Below, piece by piece: positions 4,686-7,619 of a DNA stretch of 64,000 nt (position 1 is its first letter; each line of letters begins with the position of its first letter). This DNA is from Betaproteobacteria bacterium (GTDB lineage Bacteria > Pseudomonadota > Gammaproteobacteria > Burkholderiales > SG8-39): the NCBI GenBank assembly GCA_029883975.1, contig JAOUIL010000003.1, positions 36,174 through 100,173 on the forward strand, read 5' to 3'. Position numbers and translations under genes: made by a program. Under the pieces are notes generated by a model. That model had not been told where the DNA came from. It made no database searches and saw nothing but the letters and a program-made list of their open reading frames with translations.

Positions 4686-5539
4686 GCGCCGTCGCGCGAC
4701 CGCGGCGCGTGCAGTGCGCCTCTCCGGCGGGGCTGCACCGCATGGCGTACCTGGAGTGGGGCGACCCGACCAATCCCGAGGTGCTCATCTGCGCGCACGG
4801 CCTGACGCGCTGCGCGCGCGACTTCGACAACCTCGCGCGCGCGCTTTGCACCCGTTACCGCGTCGTGTGCCCGGACATGGTGGGGCGCGGCGATTCGGGG
4901 TGGCTCGCCGATCCCGTGTTCTACGCCGTGCCGCAGTACGTGGCGGACATGGTGACGCTGATCGCGCGCCTGGACGTCGAGCGCGTGCACTGGGTCGGCA
5001 CATCGCTCGGCGGCCTGGTCGGCATGGCGCTCGCCGCGCAGAAGGACTCACCCGTGACGAAGCTGGCGCTGAACGAGGCGGGCGCGGTGGTGGCGCACGC
5101 CTCGCTCGAGCGCATCGGCCAGTACCTCGGCACCGACCCGAGATTTCCGAGCATCAAGGCGGCCGAGAAGGTGGTGCGCGCCGTGTCGGCGCCGTTCGGG
5201 CCACATACGGACGCCGAGTGGCGCTTCCTGACCGAAGTGGTGCTGAGGAAGAACCCGGACGGCACCTGGCGTTTCCACTACGACCCGCGCATCGCCGTGG
5301 CCTATCGCGGGCAGATCCCCGAGGGCGACATCGTGCTGTGGGACACCTACGATGCCATTCGCTGCCCGACGCTGCTCATCCGCGGCGCGCAGTCGGACTT
5401 GCTGTCGCGGGAAACCGCCGAGGAGATGACGCGCCGCGGGCCGCAGGCGAAGCTCGTCGAGCTGCCCGGCATCGGGCACGCGCCGACCCTGTTGCACGAC
5501 GACCAGATTGCGATCGTGCGGGAGTTTCTATTCTCGTAG
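4682..5539 (+). CDS. Alpha/beta-fold hydrolase
   Basis: HGLTRCARDFDNLARAL...DMVGRGDS...GTSLGGLVGM nucleophile elbow; TTG at 4682 overlaps upstream stop (ATG at 4742 is an alternative). Confidence 0.85.
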   Translation: MSAVARPRRVQCASPAGLHRMAYLEWGDPTNPEVLICAHGLTRCARDFDNLARALCTRYRVVCPDMVGRGDSGWLADPVFYAVPQYVADMVTLIARLDVERVHWVGTSLGGLVGMALAAQKDSPVTKLALNEAGAVVAHASLERIGQYLGTDPRFPSIKAAEKVVRAVSAPFGPHTDAEWRFLTEVVLRKNPDGTWRFHYDPRIAVAYRGQIPEGDIVLWDTYDAIRCPTLLIRGAQSDLLSRETAEEMTRRGPQAKLVELPGIGHAPTLLHDDQIAIVREFLFS

Positions 5540-5621
5540 GTATTTCAGCGGTGGTTGCCAGCGGCAACTTGCGGCTCGCGTCGAATTGACCGCTATCGAA
5601 CCTAACCGGGCATTCGCGGTG
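5461..5621. repeat. Direct repeat copy A: 3' end of hydrolase gene plus downstream intergenic
   Basis: Contains 29-bp core GCGCCGACCCTGTTGCACGACGACCAGAT (5480-5508) identical to 6642-6670; collinear similarity continues past the stop codon. Confidence 0.85.
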
Positions 5622-5814
5622 TAGATTTGCGACCGATTTGGTGTGCGGATTGCCAAAGCTGCCAACTGCGGCTTTTCTCGGAGTTGTTGTTTGCACCCAA
5701 GGATCGAAAATGACCTTGGTTGAAATTGTCGGATAGGGCGCAACGGTCCAGTAGAGTCGCTCGAGAGGAGTTGCATTTCATAGCGCCAAGGTGGTCCAGG
5801 CGGGAGGTGATGCA

Positions 5815-6588
5815 ATGGCGGGGATCTTCATAAGCTACCGTCGCGACGACAGCGACGTTGCCGCCGGCCGGCTCGCTGATGACCTATCGGAAATCCTCGG
5901 ACCTCACTCGATCTTCCGGGACGTCGACAAACTGGAGCCAGGTGAGGACTTCGAGATAGCGCTGGACCATGCCCTCAGTTCCTGTGTGGTCCTTATTGCT
6001 GTGATTGGCGCGCGCTGGTCGAGCATTACCGATGGTGGGGGGCGTCGACGCCTGGAGGATCCCAAGGATTGGGTGCGCGCAGAGATCAGCCGAGCCTTGG
6101 CGCGCGGCATTCGTGTGATACCCGTTCTGATTTCGGGAACAACTATGCCGCGCGAAGAGGAGGTTCCTGTTGATCTGAAAGCACTTCTCAAGCGTCAGGC
6201 GCTTGAGTTGGGTGATCGACACTGGAAACAGGACATTGAGCTTCTGACACAGGCCTTGGAGAAGATCCCAGGAATCACGAAGCGGGGTCCACCACTGAGC
6301 GCAATGGCCACAGCAATGGGCAGAGTCACCCTGGTTGGGTCAAGGCAATGGTTCGCAATCAGTCCACAGATAATAGTCTCCATTGACAATATGGAAGTGG
6401 CTCGAATGAAGCTGAGCGATCAAGTGACCGTGGAAATCAAACCGGGCGCTCACACGATCTATGGAAAGATGCCCCTCAGCTCCTCAAAGACCACCACTTT
6501 CGATTTGGAGCCGGGCCAAACCCAGACCTTCTCGGTGAGCATCAATCGCCTAACTGGAGGCCTGAGGATCGAACTTCTAGCGGAGTGA
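5815..6588 (+). CDS. TIR-domain protein with additional C-terminal beta-rich domain
   Basis: MAGIFISYRRDDSDVAAGRLADDLSEILGPHSIFRDVDKLEPGEDFEIALDHAL...RWSS...DWVRAEISRALARGIRVIPVLI; C-terminal IIVSIDNMEVARMKLSDQVTVEIKPGAHTIYG...TTTFDLEPGQTQTFSV. Confidence 0.9.
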   Translation: MAGIFISYRRDDSDVAAGRLADDLSEILGPHSIFRDVDKLEPGEDFEIALDHALSSCVVLIAVIGARWSSITDGGGRRRLEDPKDWVRAEISRALARGIRVIPVLISGTTMPREEEVPVDLKALLKRQALELGDRHWKQDIELLTQALEKIPGITKRGPPLSAMATAMGRVTLVGSRQWFAISPQIIVSIDNMEVARMKLSDQVTVEIKPGAHTIYGKMPLSSSKTTTFDLEPGQTQTFSVSINRLTGGLRIELLAE

Positions 6589-6628
6589 ATCCGCGACGCG
6601 AGGAATACACCAAGCAGGTGACACTGGC

Positions 6629-6783
6629 GGGCATCGGCCATGCGCCGACCCTGTTGCACGACGACCAGATCGCGATCGTGCGCGAGTTCCTGGTTTCGTA
6701 GGCATGCCGCGGTAGTTCCTGACATCCGCCTGTCGCTGGCATGGGATTGACCGCTTGCGACCTTAGGCGGACATTCATGCCGT
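6629..6783. repeat. Direct repeat copy B: orphan 3' end of an alpha/beta-hydrolase gene plus intergenic
   Basis: Encodes GIGHAPTLLHDDQIAIVREFLVS* in isolation; matches copy A (5461-5621). Confidence 0.85.
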
Positions 6784-6796
6784 GGACAGGCGCCCA

Positions 6797-7603
6797 ATGC
6801 GAGGTGCGATTGTCTGGGCATGCGCAGCCGGCCTGCTGACGGTCGCCGGTTGCGCCTCTCGTCCAGCAGAGCCGCCAAAGCCGATCAATCTCTTGGCCGT
6901 GCTGCCTGCCTGGGCGCCCGTCACCGATTCCAACCTCGGCTTCGGTTCGTCGGGACCGTCGGTCGTGGTCGTGCCGATCGTCGTGCCGTCCGGGTCGCAA
7001 GGAAGCGGGATATCGACCGGCGGCGCCGTAGCGGCAGGCGTCATTACTTCCGCAGTCATCTATGGCATGCAGGAAAGCAAGCGCAAGGGGCGCGAAGCGC
7101 TCGCCGAGGCGCTGTCGCATATCCACTTCGATGCGGCCGCGGAAGTCGACTCCAGGCTCATACCCGCACTGGAGCAGCGCCAGGTTCGTCTGGTCCGCAT
7201 CACCGATCCCAACATCATCTGGGGTGTGCGCAACGGGAGATTCGACGGCCTGCCCGAGGGCGTCGACGCCATCCTCGACGTGCGCATTACCGAGTCCGGC
7301 TACTACTCTTCCACGCGGGCCGGCGGCTACTCGCCGATGCTCCTGATCACGGCGAACCTGCTTCCGCCGGTGGCCAAAGCCGAGAGCCTGGATGAATTCA
7401 GCTACTACGCGGACTTTCGGGACGGCGGCAAGGACAGGCGATGGATCACGACGCCCACGTCCATGACTTTCGCTACCGTCGAGCTGCTCAAGGCAGGTGC
7501 AGGCGACGCGCGCGCGGGCCTCTCCACGGTGGTGGACCAGATGGTGGCGCTGATGGTCGAGGACCTGCAGCGCCATGCGCGCGGAGAGCTTCGGGTCGAC
7601 TGA
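6797..7603 (+). CDS. Putative lipoprotein
   Basis: MRGAIVWACAAGLLTVAGCASRPAEPP signal peptide with LTVAGC lipobox; ORF-track start at 6782 also possible. Confidence 0.75.
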   Translation: MRGAIVWACAAGLLTVAGCASRPAEPPKPINLLAVLPAWAPVTDSNLGFGSSGPSVVVVPIVVPSGSQGSGISTGGAVAAGVITSAVIYGMQESKRKGREALAEALSHIHFDAAAEVDSRLIPALEQRQVRLVRITDPNIIWGVRNGRFDGLPEGVDAILDVRITESGYYSSTRAGGYSPMLLITANLLPPVAKAESLDEFSYYADFRDGGKDRRWITTPTSMTFATVELLKAGAGDARAGLSTVVDQMVALMVEDLQRHARGELRVD

Positions 7604-7619
7604 GCACGCTCGTTCATCG

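Follow-up and report, generated by a model that had tools for sequence, protein, structure and literature searches.

A predicted SARM1-type TIR protein with a C-terminal beta domain, encoded on a horizontally acquired insertion in a betaproteobacterium

We analyzed a 64,000-nucleotide stretch of the genome of a Betaproteobacteria bacterium (here called the window) and found a gene for a soluble protein with an N-terminal TIR domain and a beta-rich tail. Our preferred reading, to which we give a probability of roughly 0.6, is that this gene was acquired horizontally and encodes a soluble, single-gene TIR NADase from the bacterial TIR clade that contains SARM1. A sequence-only reading of the same DNA had proposed a TIR NADase fused to a beta-rich domain. 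We found that this interpretation was partly supported overall and that it had overlooked both the horizontal insertion and the direct repeats that flank the gene.

Results

The open reading frame was exactly where it had been placed (Table 1), and the three motifs reported for it, FISYRRDDSD, RDVDKLEPGEDF, and DWVRAEISRAL, were all found in the translation. A Shine-Dalgarno-like GGAGG lies 5' of the start codon, at positions 5803 to 5807. We found no promoter- or terminator-like matches between positions 5400 and 7700 and no Rfam families at the gathering score between positions 5300 and 7700.

Table 1. Features of the TIR locus, in window coordinates
Feature	Coordinates	Strand	Basis or remark
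Direct repeat, left copy: hydrolase gene 3' end plus ~110 bp downstream	5430..5652	+	
Insertion, ~2.07 kb (right end approximate)	5540..7615	.	Empty sites in two same-genus genomes (L027, L028)
TIR protein gene, 257 aa	5815..6588	+	Start ATG 5815, stop 6586-6588
TIR domain, SARM1-like, residues 3-150	5821..6264	+	Pfam, SARM1 sequence matches, AF2/Foldseek
Y8-R9-R10 (SARM1 Y568-R569-R570), AA loop of NAD pocket	5836..5844	+	
BB loop DVDKLEPGEDF, D36-F46 (SARM1 D594...F603)	5920..5952	+	
D85-W86-V87-R88-A89-E90	6067..6084	+	Conservation and SARM1 alignment
Low-confidence linker and small all-beta domain, residues ~160-257	6292..6585	+	AF2, family profile
Direct repeat, right copy: hydrolase tail fragment (core 6612-6703) plus downstream sequence	6592..6811	+	
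Putative lipoprotein gene, 273 aa, co-inserted, without family assignment	6782..7603	+	

We found that Pfam TIR_2 matched residues 4 to 121 (47.6 bits against a cut-off of 28; E = 2.9e-12). When all PDB chains were searched, the only significant sequence matches were SARM1 and TIR-1 (best E, 7e-9). The SARM1 matches spanned residues 3 to 148, and the two TIR domains were 34% identical over 131 aligned residues. An AF2 model built from 48 sequences had pLDDT values mostly above 90 in the TIR domain. SARM1 and TIR-1 chains made up the best 33 Foldseek matches to this model (E = 1.4e-9; target-normalized TM up to 0.87), followed by the SPARTA TIR, AbTir, and others. The TIR_2 score above the curated cut-off and the predicted TIR fold together place the protein in the TIR domain superfamily. 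We concluded that its N-terminal domain has a predicted fold of the SARM1 type, in agreement with the proposed SARM1 likeness. The likeness to SARM1 and TIR-1 lies in the fold and in the pocket residues described below. SARM1 has ARM and SAM domains and a C-terminal TIR domain, whereas this protein gave no ARM or SAM match and has an N-terminal TIR domain followed by a beta tail; it does not have the architecture of the SARM1 orthologues (group 24 of PMC7075850).

The SARM1 segment around the catalytic Glu, which had been given as KDWVHKEI, proved correct. It aligns with KDWVRAEI in the TIR protein, so that E90, at the codon originally named (6082 to 6084), falls on SARM1 E642 and W86 falls on W638. 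Further counterparts by alignment are Y8 (Y568), D36 (D594), and G43 (G601). SARM1 residues Y568, R569, R570, D594, K597, E599, G601, F603, D637, W638, V639, and E642 are all identical in the TIR protein. SARM1 mutants at Y568, D594, G601, W638, and E642 are impaired (PMC8266388), and these five positions are among the identical ones. In the 48-sequence alignment, Y8, R9, D36, D85, E90, and P118 were invariant (48/48) and R10 was present in 44, so the conservation expected of Glu90 held in every relative. Equivalents of K597 and W638 occurred together in the TIR protein only; none of the other 47 sequences had both. In contrast, SARM1 H640 and H685 are replaced by R88 and D134, and the EE-loop HEYQ of SARM1 is DRHW (D134-R135-H136-W137), which departs from the H-D/E-Y-Q motif listed for SARM1 orthologues (PMC7075850). 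The TIR protein thus has SARM1-type pocket residues (matches at Y8, D36, G43, W86, and E90) and does not have the EE loop of an orthologue. From these alignments, we regard Glu90 as the candidate catalytic residue of a likely TIR NADase.

A conserved Glu is no proof of NADase activity, because it is also more than 90% conserved in one TLR subgroup and need not track enzymatic activity (PMC7075850). This caution favors an alternative in which the TIR domain belongs to a scaffold or to a housekeeping or stress-signaling protein without relevant NADase activity, the tail serving to tether another protein. The very diverse tails of the family members, which suggest varied roles, point the same way, but pocket residues that include W86 and K39 are kept beyond the needs of the fold, and we consider a scaffold quite unlikely.

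The SARM1-like context of Glu90 is real by both alignment and PDB matches, but the TIR protein is not alone in having it. A profile of the bacterial "FISYRRDDS" TIR family (for example, L004 from Rubrivivax rivuli, L011 from Candidatus Thiodiazotropha endolucinida, and L047 to L051) matched SARM1 at 6e-18, better than the TIR protein alone did, and its top 19 PDB matches were SARM1 or TIR-1. A typical bacterial relative also had TIR-1 and SARM1 as its best structure matches. Because the family profile matches SARM1 even better, SARM1 likeness is, as judged from profile comparison, common to a large and common bacterial TIR clade. No bacterial homologue of SARM1 emerged from a 2020 survey (PMC7075850), whereas a 2026 preprint places SARM1 within a bacterial TIR lineage (PMC13142454). 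The clade-wide likeness and this placement make the resemblance to SARM1 already known ground. The TIR protein is therefore what one would expect from a highly variable class of proteins that is already known, and it does not define a new system.

Members of the "FISYRRDDS" family share 31 to 59% identity with the TIR protein over the TIR domain and have the invariant residues in common. Their usual architecture is TIR-transmembrane-variable tail. Of 54 tails, a few of them duplicates, 40 had a transmembrane-like hydrophobic segment (KD19 above 1.6); in contrast, the TIR protein has no membrane helix, with a best KD19 of 0.91. By eye, the tails of family members were PASTA-like, sulfatase-modifying-factor-like, or membrane anchored, and none of them resembled the beta tail. 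Among more than 1,000 genomes we found no orthologue that carries this tail, and viral contigs and phage records contained no relatives. A match on a Paraburkholderia plasmid (37% identity, 88% cover) was rejected; its tail is of another kind, and a break in the reading frame falls inside its TIR domain. Two loci (L008 5968-8440 and L055) carry tandem TIR genes of this family that overlap by a few codons and differ in their tails. Several relatives (L057 to L059, L061, L063, L064, L070, L071, and L023) share another unnamed C-terminal domain, a transmembrane segment plus a beta tail with "W-LPTGSFW..EETHY.SREVWKRGTG."

The sequence-only reading had stated that no ThsA, Argonaute, or CBASS partner is adjacent, and the neighboring genes bear this out. 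They encode ComEC, dodecin, a hydrolase, the lipoprotein, enoyl-CoA hydratase, MarR, and efflux proteins; the adjacent genes are housekeeping genes, and no recognized defense island is present at the locus. Effectors of CBASS, SPARTA, and TIR-STING systems have a SAVED, STING, or Argonaute/APAZ partner or fusion, and none of these is found in or beside the TIR protein. A STALD search of the genome gave no match, and its control was equally silent.

Thoeris proteins ThsB and ThcB4 resemble the TIR protein in having a TIR domain with a candidate catalytic Glu. The TIR protein matched NCBIfam ThcB4 of type III Thoeris (NF058526) at E = 1.1e-12, although its 47.6 bits are far from the cut-off of 220, and PADLOC ThsB at E = 8.9e-6; the PADLOC matches were confined to the TIR part, about residues 3 to 67. 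These matches would be expected if the TIR domain, as in Thoeris, produced a signal of the cyclic-ADP-ribose type that acts on an effector from another locus and did not itself deplete NAD. TIR phylogeny, moreover, does not predict the product (PMC13142454). However, Thoeris pairs ThsB or ThcB with a ThsA-type effector, whereas no effector gene is adjacent here and a search of the genome found no SIR2_2 (ThsA-type) gene. We therefore consider such a signal-making role unlikely.

Two further TIR genes occur in the same genome. One lies in an operon-like run of a TIR gene, an nSTAND1-WD40 gene (1,439 aa), and a patatin-like phospholipase gene (L083 4965-11980; contig C132 13964-20979). The phospholipase matched a PADLOC phospholipase effector at 1.7e-44, and the run is a candidate multigene conflict system. 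The other TIR gene (L083 12382-13884, minus strand) is convergent to the patatin gene and encodes a TIR domain, a hydrophobic transmembrane-like segment, and, by eye, a possible tetratricopeptide-like tail.

The C-terminal half had been described as beta rich and, by eye, DUF2846/PEGA-like. AF2 predicted eight to nine short strands there, at low confidence (pLDDT, ~50 to 70, and 48 for the tail alone), which supports the first description; the all-beta domain itself covers about residues 168 to 257. The domain had no direct counterpart in Pfam, NCBIfam, or the PDB, and DUF2846 (PF11008) itself scored 12.1 bits against a cut-off of 34.3 (E = 0.21), below the Pfam threshold. In contrast, a profile of six natural small beta proteins found by sequence search, built without the query, had the TIR protein tail as its best nonmember among 6,231 ORFs (E = 5e-4), and hhalign of this family against the tail gave a probability of 90%. 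The second description thus holds loosely, at the level of the natural family and not for DUF2846 directly. Three members (L075, L076, and L078) are from proteobacterial genomes, two nearly identical members (L080 and L081) are from Lactococcus plasmids, and one (L082) is from a Janibacter plasmid. The nearest Pfam neighbors of the family, as judged from a hand-written consensus, are DUF2846, BiPBP_C, and PEGA.

This DUF2846/PEGA (PF08308)-related family and the tail share "V-x-ID...V....PG-x-H-x-I....S...F." DW and one Arg are invariant in the natural members and missing from the tail, and because the tail is without the DW motif we treat it as a diverged relation. With moderate confidence, these profile matches suggest that the tail belongs, as a divergent member, to an unnamed family of DUF2846/PEGA-like beta domains. 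The hand-written family consensus had matched the tail at 4e-7; because it was composed after the tail had been seen, we took this match only as a lead and replaced the consensus with the profile of natural members. A search of 369 genomes of the class with the tail alone (a 109-aa query, one residue off, with ERIPG for EKIPG) gave three matches (E, 0.003 to 0.005) that on inspection were chance or in the wrong frame.

We found that the insertion is missing from two genomes of the same genus. Window position 5529 is joined to 7620 across ~12 bp in L027 and to 7629 across ~14 bp in L028, so that ~10 to 15 bp separate the hydrolase gene from the convergent enoyl-CoA hydratase gene there, versus 2.07 kb here. 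Diverged direct repeats of ~220 bp, derived from the 3' end of the hydrolase gene that lies upstream, bracket the TIR gene (70% identity over 223 columns; E = 7e-33). The fragment in the right copy has 75% amino acid identity to hydrolase residues 230 to 265, and the similarity of the copies continues beyond the stop codon (score of 27, versus a maximum of 12 among 200 random fragments). The TIR gene has a higher AT content than the genome (GC, 0.566; GC3, 0.632), and GC3 is 0.799 in the downstream lipoprotein gene and 0.925 to 0.949 in three conserved neighbors. Since the insertion is absent from same-genus genomes, AT richer, and bracketed by repeats, we concluded from these comparisons that the TIR gene is a recent horizontal acquisition.

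The divergence between the repeat copies is of the order found between species, which makes a relative carrying this gene tail the probable donor of the cassette, with crossover inside the shared hydrolase gene tail as the likely route. The direct repeats may mark a small mobile cassette or be the scar of a donor-recipient crossover. We found no DNA-level match to the cassette in plasmids, and the lipoprotein gene was not found in 97 other genomes of the taxonomic family.

The full-length TIR protein was present in 1 of 98 genomes of the taxonomic family, and a hydrolase tail fragment adjoins its gene, as might be expected of a passenger or decaying acquired gene without present function. However, the frame of 257 codons is intact, all catalytic motifs are kept, and the ribosome-binding site is good. 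A passenger is therefore very unlikely.

Discussion

The TIR protein is probably a stand-alone NADase effector with an anti-phage role, a role suggested by its protein class together with its horizontal acquisition. According to this model, a trigger, most likely phage infection, would cause the TIR domains to self-associate and complete a composite NAD pocket as in SARM1. Glu90 would then cleave NAD+ to nicotinamide and ADP-ribose, possibly cyclic, and the cleavage would lead to cell arrest or death. The beta tail would most likely sense the trigger or set oligomerization. A more specific version, which we find doubtful but conceivable, is that the tail is an uncharacterized ligand-sensing or polymerizing module that directly gates a SARM1-type NADase, giving a minimal, membrane-free immune switch of one gene that travels as a ~1.1-kb cassette located at a host gene's 3' end.

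Comparisons between the TIR NADases of bacteria and animals would benefit from this compact, soluble bacterial protein with its full SARM1-like pocket. Its tail offers a route to the role of an unnamed beta domain in immune proteins, and the insertion with its hydrolase-tail repeats points to the mobility of such a gene as a small cassette.
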